A DNA stretch of 64,000 bases. Source: Embleya hyalina (GTDB lineage: Bacteria; Actinomycetota; Actinomycetes; Streptomycetales; Streptomycetaceae). The notes under the pieces are model-generated. The model saw only the letters and a list, made by a program, of their open reading frames with translations. It had not been told where the DNA came from and ran no database searches. The stretch covers positions 62,001-126,000 of the forward strand of contig NZ_BIFH01000035.1 of NCBI RefSeq assembly GCF_003967355.1, written 5' to 3'. Of this stretch, positions 45,724 through 53,756 are shown in pieces; the first letter of the stretch is position 1; every line of letters begins with the position of its first letter. The translations under genes were made by a program, and so were the position numbers.

Positions 45724-46569
45724 ATGGGTTATACACCGGACCTGCGCACTGAGGCCATCGATGGCATCCTTCGCCGAGTCGAGCGCGGCCTCGGGACGCA
45801 CCTTCGTGCGGGCACCGTAATTCGCAAACGGCGTTCGATCGGTGCCGTGACCGATCGGGGCACGTGGGTACGGATCGAGCGTCGGCCGCTGTCGCGCATC
45901 GATGGCCAAGGCTGGAACGGCATCGAGACTGCGGCGACGCTCGAAGGCATTGCCCAACCAAGGTGGATCGCTGGCATGTCGTGGCGGGACACCGAGGTAT
46001 CGGCAATGTGGCGGGCCGACGAGACCGAACTCGTGGCCGCGGAGCCGGTGAAGTCCGGTGGCCGATTGTCCGTCGACCCGAAGTTGTCGGACGCGTGGTG
46101 GGCAACGCTGAACGCTTCTCTCGACTCCTTGGCTGCGCAGGAGACAACGCGTGTGGCAACTCCGGACACGGTGACAATTACTCAAGTCGGAGTGACAAGC
46201 ACGATTGGCAAGGCGTTCGGCGACCACATCGATACCACGGTGGACGAGTGGATCCCCGCGCACGCCGACCTGAACTGGGCGAACGTAACGGCCCCGGACT
46301 GCTGGATTCTCGACTGGGAGGACTGGGGCCTCGCACCCCGCGGCCTCGACGCAGCAACGTTGTGGGGCAACTCCTTGGCCCTTCCCACTCTGGCTGAACG
46401 AGTACACCGGGAGCGGTGCGCAGACCTGGAGTCACGGTGCGGTCGGATCATGGCCCTGTTCTTCTGCGCCAAGGTGGTCGGCGAGTATGGCGACCCCGCC
46501 GACCCCCTTTACGCACCTAGTTGCCGCCAGGCGAAGCGGTTGCTTGAGGAGCTTCAAGACGCTGGCTGA
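45724..46569 (+). CDS. APH-like phosphotransferase fold protein
   Basis: 281 residues. C-terminal lobe has HADLNWAN (His180, Asp182, Asn187) and ILDWEDWG (Asp197), the catalytic loop and metal-binding Asp of aminoglycoside-phosphotransferase-type kinases. The N-terminal lobe is short, without a clear ATP-binding Lys. Possible substrates are small molecules, a peptide or none. It converges on the aldo/keto reductase gene and overlaps its end by 16 nt, which suggests it belongs to the same island. Start ATG at 45724 (AAGGGG upstream, weak). Confidence 0.75.
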   Translation: MGYTPDLRTEAIDGILRRVERGLGTHLRAGTVIRKRRSIGAVTDRGTWVRIERRPLSRIDGQGWNGIETAATLEGIAQPRWIAGMSWRDTEVSAMWRADETELVAAEPVKSGGRLSVDPKLSDAWWATLNASLDSLAAQETTRVATPDTVTITQVGVTSTIGKAFGDHIDTTVDEWIPAHADLNWANVTAPDCWILDWEDWGLAPRGLDAATLWGNSLALPTLAERVHRERCADLESRCGRIMALFFCAKVVGEYGDPADPLYAPSCRQAKRLLEELQDAG

Positions 46570-47411
46570 GCCCGTGCTTGCAGCCCGGCTCGATAGGCAG
46601 CGAGGCGTTCCGCATGGGGCGTGAGTCTCAATGCCTCGACGAGGGCGCGCAGATGACCGGGATCGTCGGTGCCCACGGCTACTGCGGACACAGAGGGAAG
46701 GCAGTAGGAAATACGGAAGGCGGCTTCGATCCGCGTGGTGTTCCCGGGATCCCGAAGGAAAATCCGCGGATCCACCCTTTGCCACAGCTCACTTGCGGTG
46801 CTGCCTCCGAAGGGGCTCATGCCCCAGCGGTGATGTTTGTCGACTTGCCATTGGGCTGCAAGCGCGTCAGCCGCGTTCAGGACTTCGATGCCTGCAAGCA
46901 GCCCAGCACGGGTCATGAGGACGTTCGGTCTCGGCAGCCGGTCATCGACAAGGGCGGGTAGGCAGCGCGGATTCCAGGATGCGATGCCCCAAGCCCCACA
47001 CATCCCGTCAGTGGTGGCTGCGGCGACTTCCGCACAGGCCGCGGCAAGCACGGCTCTTGCTTCGTTGCGAACCTTTGCCGCAAGCGATCTTTCGGGGCTG
47101 TGGATGAAAACGACGTCCGGTTCGCGGCCCAGGTCCCGCGCTGCCTGCTCCATCGCCGACCGTAGCCGGCGGGGGTCTAGCGAGTGCTCCGCTCCTCCCG
47201 GCTGGGGGAAGAATCCGACCTTGGTCGAGATGAAGAGGCGGTTGAGCAGGTCCGGGGCCACGCTGGCAAGGCGCCTGTGTGCCCCGAAGCTGGCGTAGTT
47301 CGTCGCCGTGTCGATGGCTTGGACGCCCATGTCCAGTGCGGTGGTCAGGGTATGGCGTTGGTAACGAGATCGGTGTAGCCCGAGAACAACTCGGGGGTCA
47401 GGACTGAACAC
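46554..47411 (-). CDS. Aldo/keto reductase
   Basis: 285 residues from GTG at 47411 (GGAGGG upstream), overlapping the end of the oxygenase gene by 67 nt. AKR tetrad visible: DTATNYASFG (Asp and Tyr), STKVGF (Lys) and VVFIHSPE (His). The nucleotide-binding loop region (VSAVAVGTDDPGHL) is present near the C-terminus. Family: NADPH-dependent carbonyl reduction. In this operon it may reduce a carbonyl on a peptide or a small metabolite; the substrate is not predictable. Confidence 0.8.
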   Translation of the reverse strand: MFSPDPRVVLGLHRSRYQRHTLTTALDMGVQAIDTATNYASFGAHRRLASVAPDLLNRLFISTKVGFFPQPGGAEHSLDPRRLRSAMEQAARDLGREPDVVFIHSPERSLAAKVRNEARAVLAAACAEVAAATTDGMCGAWGIASWNPRCLPALVDDRLPRPNVLMTRAGLLAGIEVLNAADALAAQWQVDKHHRWGMSPFGGSTASELWQRVDPRIFLRDPGNTTRIEAAFRISYCLPSVSAVAVGTDDPGHLRALVEALRLTPHAERLAAYRAGLQARAQPAS

Positions 47412-48568
47412 AGTCCCTCCTTGACGAAGACGGAGGCCAAGCCGCGAAGGATGCCGTCGAGCCGGGTCTCGATAGGGACTTCCGGGGTGAGGTGTACGGG
47501 ATGCCCACTCAGCAGCATTCGTGCGGCAGGTTCGGCTTCGGCAGCGATACCGAGCCGCAGGCCGCTGGAGACGATCTCGACCTGGCCCTCGTTCACGTCA
47601 ATACGCGGGGCGAACTCGGTGGTGCAGACCACGGCGTCCAGGGGACCGAACGCCTCGATCCACGGGACGTGCCGAGCGGGTGTCGTCTCCTGCTCGATGC
47701 GGTCGAGGTAGAGGGAAGGCCCTCGGGCCGCGATCAATTTTCGGGCTGCTTCGGTCAGCTCTCGGGCCTGCTCCTCCTGCTCGCGTGGAGAGTCGTCGCG
47801 GTGGAGGTTGTGGCGGAAGACTTCGTCGTCTCGGCACCACTCGGCCAGCCAGCCCAGCCAGGATGCCCCGGTGCGCCGGGGGAATCCGAACGTCATGTGG
47901 GTGCTGTGGCCGCCCGCCCCCTGCCCTACGCGAGTTGCGCAATGCCAGTAGCCACGAGGGATGTGCATGACGTCACCGGCGACCATCGTGCCCTCCCACA
48001 CGATGTCCTTGGGTGGTGTGTCGTTCCGCTCCGAGTCCCTGAACATCGGGGCAACGCGCGATGCCCCCCGGACCTGCCAAGCCTTCTCGCCGGCGATCTG
48101 TACGACCAGAACCTCGTGGTCGTCCCAGTGCAGTCCGAACCCGGCTGTGTCGCCGGTGGTGGTGTAGATGTTCACCTGCACTCGTTCGTGCGCCCACCAC
48201 TGCATCGCCCGGCAGGCAACCTCCAGGGTGGCGTCGAAAGCGTTTCCGCCGTCCAACACCAACGTCGCCCCGGAGTCGAGGAGGTTGCCCAGCCGCCGCA
48301 TATTCACCATGGAAATGTTCTGCCCGCGGCGCGTGGTCACGGGGCTCAGGTACTCGCGAGGGTGCAACTCGTTCCCCTCCCGAAACAGCCTGACTTGCGG
48401 GTTGCTCAAACTCCGTCGCATCACGAGGTCCAAGAGCTTGTTCGGGGTCAGCAGGCGCTCAAGCAGGTCGGGATCTCCGAGGCCGCCGCGGGCGAACTCG
48501 CGTCCGAGTTGGGCTGAACCACGCCAGCCCAGGGCCTGTTCGACGGCGTTGACCAGCCGGTGTTCCAC
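47345..48568 (-). CDS. JmjC/cupin-type 2-oxoglutarate oxygenase
   Basis: 407 residues from GTG at 48568 (GGAGG upstream). FGLHWDDHEVLVVQIAGEKAW (partly) carries the Fe(II) ligands His147 and Asp149, and MHIPRGYWH the distal His209; this spacing and the PRGYWH end match YcfD/NO66-like ribosomal-protein hydroxylases. The C-terminal third is a winged-helix-like or dimerisation region. Family: hydroxylates Arg, His or other side chains of proteins or peptides. The gene directly follows a 56-residue peptide gene, which is the natural candidate substrate. Confidence 0.8.
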   Translation of the reverse strand: MEHRLVNAVEQALGWRGSAQLGREFARGGLGDPDLLERLLTPNKLLDLVMRRSLSNPQVRLFREGNELHPREYLSPVTTRRGQNISMVNMRRLGNLLDSGATLVLDGGNAFDATLEVACRAMQWWAHERVQVNIYTTTGDTAGFGLHWDDHEVLVVQIAGEKAWQVRGASRVAPMFRDSERNDTPPKDIVWEGTMVAGDVMHIPRGYWHCATRVGQGAGGHSTHMTFGFPRRTGASWLGWLAEWCRDDEVFRHNLHRDDSPREQEEQARELTEAARKLIAARGPSLYLDRIEQETTPARHVPWIEAFGPLDAVVCTTEFAPRIDVNEGQVEIVSSGLRLGIAAEAEPAARMLLSGHPVHLTPEVPIETRLDGILRGLASVFVKEGLCSVLTPELFSGYTDLVTNAIP

Positions 48569-48653
48569 AGCGTGCCTCCAAGTGGGGACAGCAGAAAGGA
48601 GAGGCCGCGCGGCATGTACCGCGCGGCCGTGGCTCGCGTGCGCTCGGAGTTGA

Positions 48654-48824
48654 CTAGGCGGGGTAGTTCAGGCCGTCGCCGTCCGGCTGGCTGTCGCCGG
48701 TGGCGTGGGGCGGCGGGTCAGAACGATCGGCGTCGTTGCGGTCGTGGACAGCGCCGAGTTCTTCGATCGTGACGACCAGATCGTGAGCGAGAACCTGAAC
48801 GGCCTCGCGTTGTGGATCACTCAT
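48654..48824 (-). CDS. 56-residue peptide, possible RiPP precursor
   Basis: ATG at 48824, GGAGGG ten bases upstream. Leader-like first half (REAVQVLAHDLVVTIEELG), then a hydrophilic Pro/Asp/Gly part and the end DGDGLNYPA. No Cys, no transmembrane segment. The amphipathic leader plus a short distinct tail, directly before a peptide-type oxygenase, is the pattern of a ribosomally made, modified peptide. It could instead be a small partner protein of the operon. Candidate modified residues are the Asn, Asp and His of the second half. Confidence 0.5.
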   Translation of the reverse strand: MSDPQREAVQVLAHDLVVTIEELGAVHDRNDADRSDPPPHATGDSQPDGDGLNYPA

Positions 48825-49018
48825 GCGGATCACTCCCTCCATATCGGGTGGGTAGTGCTGTGCCGCTGTGCGAAGGGCCGAACTACTGCCGATGAGGCAG
48901 GAGTTCGGGCCGGTTCCATCGTGCGCAGTACGGGTTCGAACCTGCAACGGTTCGGAGGGGCCCGGCTGCGTGGTCGGCCGTTCATTGGTAGACCCTTCGA
49001 GAGCGTGGTTGGGGTGGT

Positions 49019-49177
49019 TCAGTCATCGGGGCACGACGACGCGTCCGGGATCATCCCGGACCCGCAATCGCAACACGTGGACAGGTTTCCGCGCGTCGAC
49101 CGGTGCCCGCCTTGGGCGCACTCGTCCGGCTCCAGCGGGTAGAGGCTGCCGTCCGGGCGTTGCTTCTGTTTCCCCAC
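49019..49177 (-). CDS. 52-residue Cys-rich protein
   Basis: GTG at 49177, four bases before the end of the kinase gene, GGGAG upstream. Five cysteines, four of them late: CCDCGSGMIPDASSC. Gly/Ser-rich. May be a zinc protein or a second peptide of the locus. It lies between the kinase and the 56-residue peptide. About 190 nt with no gene follow before that peptide. Confidence 0.55.
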   Translation of the reverse strand: MGKQKQRPDGSLYPLEPDECAQGGHRSTRGNLSTCCDCGSGMIPDASSCPDD

Positions 49178-49180
49178 GGC

Positions 49181-49969
49181 TCAGGCACTCCCTACGAGTA
49201 ACGGGAGCCAGCCCTCGCAGTGCTCGGGAGGGTCGGGGATTTCCGACCGGGCAGCGGCCAGGTACGCGCTCCGAGCCGAGCGGGACACGCTGTTCCAGGC
49301 CGGGCACACCTCCAGCACCCACCTCATCGCGCTCGTATGCGTGTGCCCGGCGTATACGAGCCATCGATACATCCCGGCGGCTTCCACCCAGGCCGGGCCG
49401 ATGCTGGCTCGCCCCCAGTCCAACAGCGCGAGCGTCCCGTCGTTCGAAACTCGCGTGTTGCCGGGCGATACGTCGTAATGCAGCAGGGAACTGCCCTGGA
49501 GCAGGGAGCGATGAGCGGGTGCGAGATGCGGCCCGAAACGATCCACGACCGTGGGCAGACCCGAGCCTGGGGCCAACTGCACCGTACCTACCGCGCGTAA
49601 CGCCTGAACCAGCAGAGGCAGATCGGCGGAACCGGGCGAGTAGTCGGCCGGGCGCCCCGGAGCCTCGTGAACGAGGAGCACCGACCACTCGTCGACCGAC
49701 AAGCTTCGGATGAGACGGGGTGAGATGCCGAGCGGCGCTACCAAGTTTGCTGCGATGACTTCGTAGCCCTGACTGGCGGCCGAGTGAGGATTGCGGATGC
49801 GGCTGGAAGCCTTCAGGAAGACCCGCTCTCCATCCCCGCGGATCACAATGCCGGCAGCACAGCTCGTGTGTGGGTCCGTAGCCGCAGGCCCGGGTTTGAC
49901 TCCACCGATCTGCCCGATGACGGCGCGCCGTACATACACCGGCAGCGCCTCGTACCACGTTGCACTCAT
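49181..49969 (-). CDS. APH/choline-kinase-like phosphotransferase
   Basis: 262 residues. VFLKASS (Lys53, ATP lysine), HYDVSPGN (His164, Asp166, Asn171) and LLDWGRA (Asp184) are the standard APH-type kinase residues in order. ATGA overlap with the 151-residue gene before it. Similar kinase-fold proteins occur in some RiPP loci (class V lanthipeptide, thioamitide) where they act in Ser/Thr activation; a small-molecule kinase is the alternative. Confidence 0.75.
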   Translation of the reverse strand: MSATWYEALPVYVRRAVIGQIGGVKPGPAATDPHTSCAAGIVIRGDGERVFLKASSRIRNPHSAASQGYEVIAANLVAPLGISPRLIRSLSVDEWSVLLVHEAPGRPADYSPGSADLPLLVQALRAVGTVQLAPGSGLPTVVDRFGPHLAPAHRSLLQGSSLLHYDVSPGNTRVSNDGTLALLDWGRASIGPAWVEAAGMYRWLVYAGHTHTSAMRWVLEVCPAWNSVSRSARSAYLAAARSEIPDPPEHCEGWLPLLVGSA

Positions 49970-50421
49970 GAGGCTTCGCCCTCCACGCAGAAAAGCTCGG
50001 CCCAGTTCGCCACATGCCCCATGGGGTGCGGGAAGTTGGTCCACACGAGATCCGACAGCAGTGCAAACCACGCCCCCGTGGCCGGGGGCTGAACCGTGGC
50101 CATCGCACCGCCCCCGCGGAGCGCCCACATCTCCATCAGTTGCCCGGGGGAACGCCGCGTCGAGTCGTCGGTGCCGACGTACCGCACGTACGCACCAGAA
50201 ACGGGTGGGGGCGGGCTCACGACCACCAAGTACTCCATGTAGCAGTCGAACTCGAAGCCGCTTGCGTCGCGCAGGTAGAGGTGTGTCCCTACGGCGTCCA
50301 TGAGTACACCGTCTTGGCCCGTCTCGTCGTTGCGGCAGACGGCGTGTCGGTACCGCGCGAGAAACGCGTTCCCTGCGGTAATTGCCTCCTGTGTATGCGC
50401 GGAAATCGGCAGGGTGGTCAT
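49966..50421 (-). CDS. Unknown protein of the island operon
   Basis: 151 residues; start ATG at 50421 is chosen because it forms ATGA with the previous stop. Alpha/beta with LYLRDASGFEFDCYMEYLVV and WFALLSDLVWTNFPHPMGH. No family recognised. Overlaps the kinase gene by ATGA, so it is probably made in equal amount and may act with it. Confidence 0.6.
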   Translation of the reverse strand: MTTLPISAHTQEAITAGNAFLARYRHAVCRNDETGQDGVLMDAVGTHLYLRDASGFEFDCYMEYLVVVSPPPPVSGAYVRYVGTDDSTRRSPGQLMEMWALRGGGAMATVQPPATGAWFALLSDLVWTNFPHPMGHVANWAELFCVEGEAS

Positions 50422-50759
50422 CGGGTCCGCCCCCATCCCCTGCGAAACCACCGCAGCCATGGTTGCCGCAGACGACGCCCCTCAGTTGCCGGCGCGTTGT
50501 TGCGCGGGACCGCATCTGCCAAAGCCGCCAACAGGTCGGCGGAAGCCTTCAGTTGGGCTCGCGCCGCGGCAATGCGTTTCGCTTCGTTCTTGCGGGCAAC
50601 GGCGGCGTCCCATTGGGCCTGGGCCTGGGTGGCGTCGTCGTCCGCCTGGACGTCGGTGGTCCATCTCCGGACAAGATCCCGCAGCCGTGCATCCTGTACC
50701 CGCTCAACGGCCAACGTTCGGGCTGCGCCACTGTGAATCTCGGCAGCCGAATCTGTCAT
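50418..50759 (-). CDS. Coiled-coil protein, first gene of the island operon
   Basis: 113 residues. Charged, Ala-rich helix (QAQAQWDAAVARKNEAKRIA then QLKASADLLAALADAV), basic end with Trp (LRQPWLRWFRRGWGRT). No domain recognised. ATG at 50759 has AAGGGA upstream. The 186 nt before it towards 50945 hold no gene. Confidence 0.55.
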   Translation of the reverse strand: MTDSAAEIHSGAARTLAVERVQDARLRDLVRRWTTDVQADDDATQAQAQWDAAVARKNEAKRIAAARAQLKASADLLAALADAVPRNNAPATEGRRLRQPWLRWFRRGWGRTR

Positions 50760-50945
50760 TGTTGTCGTGTCCCTTCCAATCGGGGCACGTAGGGGACGGG
50801 GCCACTGTCCAGGTAGATCCCCGTCCCCTACGCTCGTCGCGCAGCCGGGCGAGCCGCCGCTGCGCTGCCACCCCTCCCGAGAACTACGTCACGGGAGGTT
50901 CACAGCCCCAGCGTGCGAGGAGAGGCATCGCACACCGGGGCAGTC

Positions 50946-51137
50946 TCATGCGGGCGCCAACCGGCGCACGGGTGACAGGAGTTCGATCCCCGAGCGCGTG
51001 CGAATTTTGACGTTCGGCCCGTCGTAACCGCAGACGGTACCCGAGCGGCCAGAGATGACCTCTTGAACTTCGCGACCCTCGTACTCGTCGGCAAAATTGC
51101 GTGCGGACTCGTGGGCTCTGTCACTGTCACCGGGCAT
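50946..51137 (-). CDS. Small protein with SH3-like strand pattern
   Basis: 63 residues from ATG at 51137 (AAGAAGG upstream). EGREVQEVISGRSGTVCGYD and VKIRTRSGIELLSPVRRL suggest a small beta barrel as in KOW or Tudor-like modules. Divergent from the DUF5753 regulator gene. Role unknown. Confidence 0.5.
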   Translation of the reverse strand: MPGDSDRAHESARNFADEYEGREVQEVISGRSGTVCGYDGPNVKIRTRSGIELLSPVRRLAPA

Positions 51138-51304
51138 GGCTGTGCCTTCTTCCGGTTGCGTGTATCGGCAGTGCCGCCACCGATGATGATCACGCGGCGT
51201 AGTGCGGTACTGACTCGTCACGTTCGCATGCAACACTTGTTACAGCAACCGTTACAGCGATGCGCCACGGAATGATTCATCAGATCTGAGCCGAGGAGCT
51301 GTTT

Positions 51305-52141
51305 GTGGAGCCACGACGGACGGGAGGGGTTGCCGCCGAACTGCGGCGCCTACGCACCGAGAAGGGCCTGTCAGTCGAAGCCGTGGCGGCGCTCGCGCCC
51401 GGTTGGAACAAGGCCAAAGTGTCGCGGATCGAGACCGGCAAGACGCCGGTGACAGCCGATCACGTCGAAGACCTTGCCGGCCCTCTGGGACTGACACCCG
51501 TGGGCCGGATAAGACTCCTGCGCCTTCTTGGCGGTGCACAGGGTGACGAGTGGTGGCAGCCGTACCACAGCGTCCTGCGAGAAGAGTACGAAGAACTCAT
51601 CTACTGGGAGTCGCTGGCTGTAGAAATGGACGCGGGGCACGCACTGTTCCCGGGGTGGCTTCAGGAGGAGAGCTACGCGCAGGCAACTATCATGCGGAGC
51701 GCCTTCGTTCCCGATCCGGACGATGCCGAGATGCTTCTGAGTGTCCGCTTGGAGCGACAACGCGTCATCATCGATCGGCGCGTCAAGCTGTGCGTGACCC
51801 TGGCCGAGACGGCACTGACGGATCAGTTCTGCGGGCGAGTAGCCTTGAAGGCACAACTACGTCATGTGCTCGACCTCAGCGACTTGGACCACCTCAGCCT
51901 GCGGATCGTGCCCGCTGCCGCTGAGGGCACGAGCTTCTTGGGCGGAGTCACGGTCATGGACTTCCCGTCAGACCTGGGGCAACAGCCCTTGGCGTTGATT
52001 GAGTACCAGTCAGGGACGGACTTCTTGAAGCGCGAACGCATTGTGAAGCGCTACCGCCGAGACCTAGCGCACTTCAGGTCTGCGGCAGTCACTGAAGACC
52101 AGTCTCGGGCGATGATTGCGGAAAGATTGGATGTGCTGTGA
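51305..52141 (+). CDS. XRE-family regulator with DUF5753 domain
   Basis: 278 residues from GTG at 51305 (GAGGAG upstream). N-terminal helix-turn-helix (GLSVEAVAALAPGWNKAKVS, residues 21-40), then DUF5753 (WWQPYHSVLREEYEELIYWE, LFPGWLQEESYAQA). Streptomyces has many such proteins, each paired with a DUF397 partner that inhibits it or acts as antitoxin-like cofactor. Here the pair is complete and coupled. Could control the adjacent island operon. Confidence 0.9.
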   Translation: MEPRRTGGVAAELRRLRTEKGLSVEAVAALAPGWNKAKVSRIETGKTPVTADHVEDLAGPLGLTPVGRIRLLRLLGGAQGDEWWQPYHSVLREEYEELIYWESLAVEMDAGHALFPGWLQEESYAQATIMRSAFVPDPDDAEMLLSVRLERQRVIIDRRVKLCVTLAETALTDQFCGRVALKAQLRHVLDLSDLDHLSLRIVPAAAEGTSFLGGVTVMDFPSDLGQQPLALIEYQSGTDFLKRERIVKRYRRDLAHFRSAAVTEDQSRAMIAERLDVL

Positions 52142-52326
52142 CCAGCATCGATAGACGCCCTTGGCGCAAGTCTCGTTACTCGAACGGCGACGCAAGCTGT
52201 GTTGAGGTAGCCCCGCTCGACAGCACCGCTACTGGGGTGCGTGACACCAAGGACCGCGAACGAGGCCACTTGGAGATCGCTCCGTACGCGTGGTCGGCCA
52301 TGTTGAAGGCCATCAAGCCGAGTTGA
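52138..52326 (+). CDS. DUF397 protein
   Basis: 62 residues, starting GTG inside the previous stop (GTGA). PWRKSRYSNGDASCVEVAPL and VRDTKDRERGHLEI are the DUF397 hallmarks, ending with the typical WSAMLKAIK. Partner of the upstream XRE/DUF5753 regulator. Confidence 0.9.
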   Translation: MTSIDRRPWRKSRYSNGDASCVEVAPLDSTATGVRDTKDRERGHLEIAPYAWSAMLKAIKPS

Positions 52327-53196: not shown

Positions 53197-53287
53197 CTGT
53201 CGCCACAGGATCGCCACACGGCACCCAGAATCAGGCCGGAATAGGCATGATCAACCAGGAGAACCGACCGTGCAGACCGAGATCGAA

Positions 53288-53327
53288 AAGGCCCCCTGAC
53301 CTGCATGTTCGCAGATCAGAGGGCCTT
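53288..53327 (-). terminator. Terminator of rnpB
   Basis: Leftward: AAGGCCCTCTGA paired with TCAGGGGGCCTT (12 bp, one wobble) followed by TTCG, starting 16 nt after the 3' end of the RNase P RNA. Confidence 0.75.
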
Positions 53328-53342
53328 CGTTCAGATGGCCGA

Positions 53343-53756
53343 CGGACGAGTCTGCCTATACGCCGGGTTCTGTCTCCCGGGAGCCTTGCGGCGCCCGGGG
53401 AGGCGGCCATCCATCTACGACTGCCGTTGCCGACAGCCTCCAGCGGTCTACCCGCGAACTCGGGCGGGCCGCCCTCGAACGTTCGCGCGGAGCACGTTTC
53501 ACGGTGCTCGTCTTGACCTTGCTCCGGGTGGGGTTTACCTAGCCGCCCGAGTCGCCTCGGGCGCTGGTGGTCTCTTACACCACCGTTTCACCCTTACCGG
53601 TCGTCCGAGGACGCCGGCGGTCTGTTTTCTGTGGCACTGTCCCGCGGGTCGCCCCGGGTCGGTGTTACCGACCACCCTGCCCTGTGGAGCCCGGACGTTC
53701 CTCGGCGGAACCCTCCGAGGAGGAATCCCGACGCGGCCGCCCGGCCGACTCATCCG
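53343..53756 (-). ncRNA. rnpB: RNase P RNA (bacterial type A)
   Basis: About 414 nt. Near the 5' end is the universal core GAGGAACGTCCGGGCTCC followed by ACAGGGCAGGGTGGT; further on are AGAGACCACCAG, GGTAAACCCCACCCGG and GCAAGGTCAAGA, and near the 3' end GGCAGACTCGTCCG, all classical P RNA segments. P1 is formed by CGGATGAGTC (5') with GACTCGTCCG (3'). Processes the 5' ends of tRNA precursors. The first 92 nt overlap the end of the RNB-family gene, on the same strand. A TAGGAT element just upstream (53768-53773) could be its -10. Confidence 0.95.

Follow-up and report, generated by a model that had tools for sequence, protein, structure and literature searches.

A prophage-borne cassette of peptide, JmjC oxygenase, aldo/keto reductase and APH-fold kinase genes: a candidate RiPP-like system in actinomycetes

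The ribosomal oxygenases YcfD (RoxA), MINA53 and NO66 (PF08007) are JmjC enzymes, of which YcfD hydroxylates arginine, and NO66 and MINA53 hydroxylate histidine. JmjC proteins also occur in pathways for ribosomally synthesized and post-translationally modified peptides (RiPPs): BipG, the JmjC protein of the biphenomycin pathway, acts on an ornithine of the precursor and hydroxylates it (PMC12707348), and a structure-based survey of RiPP recognition elements (RREs) reports JmjC (PF08007) proteins fused to an RRE-like winged-helix domain, whose homologues in bacteria are said to occur in RiPP-like settings (PMC12710340). APH-fold kinases (LxmK, KinD and TvaE) stand beside the precursors of class V lanthipeptides and of kintamdin and thioamitides. 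Here we describe a cassette at positions 45724–48824 of a 64,000-nucleotide stretch of Embleya hyalina DNA (NZ_BIFH01000035.1, positions 62,001 to 126,000; the window), which consists of genes for a 56-residue peptide, a JmjC oxygenase, an aldo/keto reductase (AKR) and a convergent APH-fold kinase (Table 1). Judged from sequence and models, it probably forms a self-contained, prophage-borne, RiPP-like peptide-modification unit outside any class found. An earlier note, made from the sequence alone, had proposed an unclassified RiPP or signalling-peptide system, and this remains the best class of explanation.

Like the biphenomycin pathway, the cassette places the gene for a JmjC Fe(II)/2-oxoglutarate enzyme beside a short precursor, which in biphenomycin is shown to be hydroxylated (PMC12707348). 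The MNIO, B12 radical-SAM, arginase and TldD-like enzymes of biphenomycin clusters are all missing from the conserved cassette, whereas an AKR or kinase is not described for biphenomycin, and the core sequences differ. With class V lanthipeptide and thioamitide pathways the cassette has in common the APH-fold kinase beside a precursor; unlike in those pathways, no HopA1-like lyase was found in the cassette or is conserved in its flanks, and 54 of 55 distinct peptides lack cysteine, making class V-type thioether formation very unlikely. Known RiPP classes (lanthipeptide, YcaO, radical-SAM and others) were rejected because conservation is limited to the JmjC, AKR and APH-fold proteins, and NCBIfam precursor families were rejected because the peptide matches none. 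The best label is a new RiPP-like cassette without a known class, a candidate rather than a proven RiPP.

Searches with the JmjC protein covered 394 genomes from the family as well as a named genome collection, and the loci recovered were compared by tblastn with every gene of the window. In clade A (JmjC 50–62% identical), the genes for the peptide, JmjC protein, AKR and convergent kinase recur together; across wide flanks, JmjC, AKR and kinase were present in 26 of 26 loci, whereas the runner-up, a regulator of XRE type, was present in 14. The gene order is retained in clade B, which comprises Streptomyces and others and has JmjC proteins about 30% identical, with a co-oriented kinase gene and a related peptide. 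Peptide, JmjC and kinase genes stay together across clades, chromosomes, plasmids and phages, and the AKR gene usually stays with them. One of the grounds that the earlier note had named for giving up its proposal was a peptide gene that is not kept next to oxygenase homologues; instead, peptide, JmjC and kinase co-occur in dozens of loci, nearly always with an AKR, and the peptide association survived this test. A short encoded precursor conserved beside modifying enzymes, by which RiPP loci are recognized, is present here. Among 20 loci with all three proteins, most from clade B, the pairwise distances between JmjC proteins, between AKRs and between kinases correlate at 0.98–0.99 (no shuffle comparison); the separation of the two clades accounts for most of this, but the value is compatible with the genes being inherited together. 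At several other loci (L155, L156, L157, L158–L159, L160 and L185) the JmjC gene, and in some also the AKR or kinase gene, is apparently truncated, split across frames or contigs, or interrupted, and most of these cassettes keep an intact-looking peptide gene.

A profile built from clade-A peptides and run on the 394 family genomes gave 41 matches at E ≤ 1.6e-8, with the next-best at 5e-4, and all 41 lie directly upstream of a clade-A JmjC gene (about 15–110 bp from match to gene). With so many homologues beside one and the same gene and such a gap to the next match, the peptide is more than a product of chance. Of the 43 family genomes in which the JmjC search found a clade-A-like protein, 41 have the peptide by this profile; of the other two, G172 has a JmjC protein 42% identical, with neither AKR nor kinase, and in G020 the JmjC match covers residues 190–407 only. 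A combined peptide profile was then used on later loci that had no part in building it, and found the peptide in all eight independent loci (four IMG/VR contigs and four plasmid loci). The same profile detected no neighbouring peptide at JmjC-only relatives (L087–L112 and L154).

Leu16, Arg29, Asp36 and Asp50 are invariant among the 55 distinct peptides, Asp44 is found in 54 of them and Ser35 in 53. The peptides are short, with Gly/Ser/Asp-rich ends and variable tails. Codon changes fall mostly at third positions in the majority of peptide pairs, the pattern of a translated gene under constraint. The clade B peptide, 45 residues long and ending in SDVSSGRSDGND, also sits ahead of JmjC. Peptides of the two clades align across the helix with an hhalign probability of 67%, which suggests kinship over that region; the alignment is least certain at the short C-terminal part.

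The spacers between the clade-A peptide and JmjC genes, mostly 67–98 bases long, fold into a stable G+C-rich hairpin. All 29 long spacers examined contain one, with z < −2 against dinucleotide shuffles in 23 of the 29, compared with 1 of 29 for control pieces of equal length taken from within the JmjC gene. The hairpin could be a partial terminator or an mRNA stabiliser that favours the precursor transcript. A precursor followed by a hairpin and then by enzymes is a typical order in RiPP operons.

The oxygenase shares with the ribosomal oxygenases both the JmjC ligands and the whole architecture. Its iron ligands His147, Asp149 and His209 are invariant in 36 sequences, and its predicted model has a mean predicted local distance difference test (pLDDT) score of 90. 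Residues 1–392 of the model match NO66 (Z 24.2, root-mean-square deviation (rmsd) 6.8, 365 aligned), with MINA53 and YcfD next, and the sequence profile likewise places the protein nearest the ribosomal oxygenases. A match through residues 1–392 points to a complete ribosomal-oxygenase architecture of JmjC, helical domain and C-terminal winged helix. The C-terminal region is modelled as three strands and helices, and ribosomal oxygenases carry a winged helix there anyway.

Similarity to NO66, MINA53 and YcfD would also be expected if the peptide gene were incidental and its neighbours passengers, with the oxygenase serving as an accessory enzyme that modifies a ribosomal protein. We consider this very unlikely: a distribution as patchy as 43 of 394 family genomes, together with phage and plasmid carriage, is unlike that of a housekeeping ribosome enzyme, the gene association holds at 30% identity, and JmjC-only relatives exist without AKR, kinase or peptide. 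The cassette oxygenase differs from ribosomal oxygenases in exactly these respects, having a dedicated peptide, AKR and kinase and a patchy, mobile distribution, and its substrate is presumably the peptide. Many actinomycetes have lone JmjC (PF08007) relatives (L087–L112), presumably ordinary ribosomal-oxygenase-like proteins. At an Oceanicaulis locus (L051:7752–13546) a relative of JmjC with 31% identity has, within a few genes, what by-eye reading of the translations suggests are an ABC exporter of the C39-peptidase type and a Fic-like protein; no peptide of the cassette family was detected at this locus.

The AKR matches PF00248 at 43.6 bits against a threshold of 24, and its tetrad Asp34, Tyr39, Lys64 and His104 is invariant, so the enzyme is probably active. 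The convergent kinase scores 12.1 bits with PF01636, below the gathering cut-off of 23.2, and a sequence profile search for solved relatives gave chance matches only. Its model (mean pLDDT 94) matches APH(4)-Ia (Z 15.9, rmsd 4.5, 247 aligned), with the RiPP pathway kinases LxmK and TvaE also among the fold matches, and His180, Asp182, Asn187 and Asp197 of an HxDxxxxN...D pattern are invariant. The modelled APH fold fits a peptide kinase and a self-resistance kinase alike. As read from the alignments, all three cassette enzymes retain their catalytic residues. The earlier note's calls of a JmjC protein with HxD...H ligands and of an AKR are borne out by Pfam (JmjC_2, 4e-20; AKR, 3e-11) and by the invariant residues; of its two APH-like proteins, the leftward one agrees with Pfam (APH, 8e-8), whereas the convergent one, sub-threshold by Pfam, is upheld by its modelled fold. 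The stop-codon ends of the AKR and convergent kinase genes overlap by 16 bp (46554–46569 shared). A short convergent overlap of this kind recurs across many clade-A loci, and the kinase gene is co-oriented in Lentzea as in clade B.

In the mechanism we propose, the oxygenase would bind the conserved peptide helix (around LVVTIEELGAVHDR), perhaps through its C-terminal winged-helix domain, and its Fe(II)/2-oxoglutarate centre would hydroxylate a conserved residue. Hydroxylation of the peptide by this enzyme is, on the comparative evidence, the probable outcome. Arg29 is our favoured guess for the site because it is invariant and because related enzymes act on arginine (YcfD), histidine (NO66 and MINA53) or ornithine (BipG), but we think it less likely than not that Arg29 is the residue modified. 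The AKR would next reduce or oxidise the newly made group, and the APH-fold kinase would phosphorylate the peptide or the finished product, with phosphorylation of the product acting as self-protection; the hairpin downstream of the peptide gene would keep peptide mRNA in excess over enzyme mRNA. A core that is conserved rather than hypervariable suggests that the cassette makes a single defined product, perhaps a signal or an effector, and not a family of diversified antibiotics.

Several observations count against such a modification pathway. BipG rejects Arg-containing peptides (PMC12707348), which makes Asp36, Asp44 and Asp50 serious alternative sites and leaves Arg29 possibly as a recognition residue instead. 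The peptide core varies less than RiPP cores typically do, and conservation beside the cassette extends to no protease, no transporter and no enzyme of a known RiPP class. The isolated C-terminal domain of the JmjC protein, from the window and from five homologues, matches no PqqD/RRE Pfam model, and gives weak helix-turn-helix and ROXA-wH matches below cut-off. The AKR gene is missing from two phage-borne cassettes (L167 and L168), copies that suggest a minimal set of peptide, JmjC and kinase. These two AKR-less cassettes lie at L167:4029–6322 and L168:7725–10938, the latter with two tandem kinases.

The conserved core and the missing protease and exporter would both suit a different role for the small protein, that of a stable protein that regulates or partners one of the three enzymes (oxygenase, reductase or kinase), with the enzymes using some other small-molecule substrate, as AKR and kinase families mostly do. 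We regard this as the less likely account, though one with appreciable weight, given that hydroxylation of proteins and peptides is well established for JmjC enzymes of the ribosomal-oxygenase type, that the peptide is short with a Gly/Ser/Asp-rich end and variable tails, and that the genes follow the RiPP-like order of precursor, hairpin and enzymes. A RiPP-like modification unit is still the reading we prefer. In its fullest form, to which we give an even chance, it would be a new RiPP class in which a ribosomal-oxygenase-type JmjC enzyme hydroxylates an invariant residue (Arg29 or Asp) of a 45–60-residue precursor, an AKR and an APH-fold kinase act later, and prophages and plasmids spread the set among actinomycetes.

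The earlier note's description of the locus was incomplete in that it overlooked the prophage in which the cassette lies. The first 44 kb of the window (1–44 kb) encode DNA polymerase, ribonucleotide reductase, terminase, portal, capsid, tape measure and endolysin. From about C35:61,000 (C35 being the contig that holds the window) to window position 53,300, G+C content is 57–68%, against mostly 67–76% outside. The left end, on the attL side of a pair of att repeats, has a gene for a tyrosine-type integrase, and in the sister genome G002 both flanks are joined directly over one repeat copy, an empty site. The repeats, integrase and empty site together define a prophage of about 54.4 kb (C35:60942–115368; window 1–53368) at the 3′ end of rnpB, with the cassette as apparent cargo in its right arm. 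All the features looked for in a prophage (integrase, att repeats, empty site and structural hallmark genes) are present.

The prophage portal is 70%, 58% and 56% identical to those of the Streptomyces phages Success, Ibantik and Ponzi, respectively. Success has a similar size (57 kb) and the same layout, with leftward replication genes, rightward structural genes, and endolysin followed by a right arm. Unlike the prophage, Success has no cassette, and no JmjC homologue was found in any of 50,697 phage-collection records. The cassette is present on four IMG/VR contigs. Profiles identified phage genes near it at L168 (tail and endolysin), L167 (DNA polymerase and primase) and L165 (replication initiator); at L166 the single tested protein had no phage profile match. 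Clade-A JmjC homologues also occur on plasmids of Embleya, Streptomyces, Nocardia and Pseudonocardia, and clade B homologues on Streptomyces plasmids; at four plasmid loci the presence of the complete set, peptide included, was confirmed.

All eight open reading frames listed in the earlier note are present where it had placed them, and they are adjacent and mostly co-oriented in the window, as its claim of a single peptide-modification locus with both kinases and the Cys-rich protein would have it. That claim did not hold, and we rejected a single eight-gene locus as contradicted by the comparisons and very unlikely indeed: the leftward APH-like gene and the genes for the 52-, 164- and 113-residue proteins are not conserved with the cassette, the last three being found in no other compared locus. 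The leftward kinase belongs to a family with 7 matches in its own genome and 6–9 in each of three sister genomes, and most of the copies examined adjoin XRE and/or DUF397 genes, far from JmjC; none adjoins a JmjC cassette except that in the window. Members of this family lie near window positions 49184–52326 and on C15, C16, C20, C48 and C71 of genome G000. The peptide and the 52-, 164- and 113-residue proteins have no Pfam or NCBIfam match above curated cut-offs. An anti-phage defence system was rejected, as none of eight proteins, among them the peptide and the 52-, 164- and 113-residue proteins, matched a PADLOC model at E ≤ 0.01. Public annotation labels the cassette proteins as hypothetical, cupin, aldo/keto reductase and phosphotransferase.

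Table 1 Features of the cassette, its neighbours and the prophage ends (window positions unless a contig is named)
Feature	Position	Strand	Basis or remark
Peptide gene, 56 residues, putative modified-peptide precursor	48654–48824	−	Sequence MSDPQREAVQVLAHDLVVTIEELGAVHDRNDADRSDPPPHATGDSQPDGDGLNYPA; Shine-Dalgarno GGAGG ahead of ATG
Peptide–JmjC spacer with G+C-rich hairpin (GGCCGCGCGG..CCGCGCGGCC)	48569..48656	−	Folding of spacer
JmjC (PF08007) Fe(II)/2-oxoglutarate oxygenase, 407 residues	47345–48568	−	Pfam, ligands, model
Aldo/keto reductase, 285 residues	46554–47411	−	Pfam, tetrad; 5′ end overlaps JmjC gene
Convergent APH-fold kinase, 281 residues	45724–46569	+	Model, catalytic residues; 3′ end overlaps AKR gene
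Cys-rich 52-residue gene, outside conserved cassette	49019–49177	−	Prophage neighbour
Leftward APH-like kinase gene, outside conserved cassette	49181–49969	−	Pfam APH; prophage neighbour
Unknown 164-residue gene, outside conserved cassette	49966–50460	−	Prophage neighbour
Coiled-coil-like 113-residue gene, outside conserved cassette	50418–50759	−	Prophage neighbour
attR, 83-bp imperfect repeat at 3′ end of rnpB	53286–53368		Repeat comparison
attL, 83-bp imperfect repeat	Contig C35:60942–61024, about 1 kb left of window		Repeat comparison

That a JmjC protein can serve as a RiPP enzyme has been proposed before, since the RRE survey mentions JmjC–RRE fusions and BipG proves one such enzyme. In its passage on the fusions the survey describes no precursor family, AKR, kinase or mobile carriage (PMC12710340). 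We found no matching description of JmjC with an AKR or phosphotransferase in RiPP clusters in the open-licence literature, and the precursor family, the combination of AKR and kinase, and the prophage and plasmid carriage are absent from the open-licence papers and family libraries searched. Automatic detection may have picked up the cassette before now.

At three to four genes the cassette is compact enough to express and assay, its invariant residues are concrete sites to test, and the peptide profile is a handle for further copies. Viewed through its gene content, it is probably an undescribed route to a modified peptide, found dozens of times in genomes, plasmids and phages of actinomycetes. 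Should the modification prove real, a RiPP-like class would be built around an oxygenase type best known from ribosome hydroxylation, bringing together reductase and kinase chemistry in a way described in no other class found, and phages and plasmids would ferry a complete peptide-modification pathway among actinomycetes.

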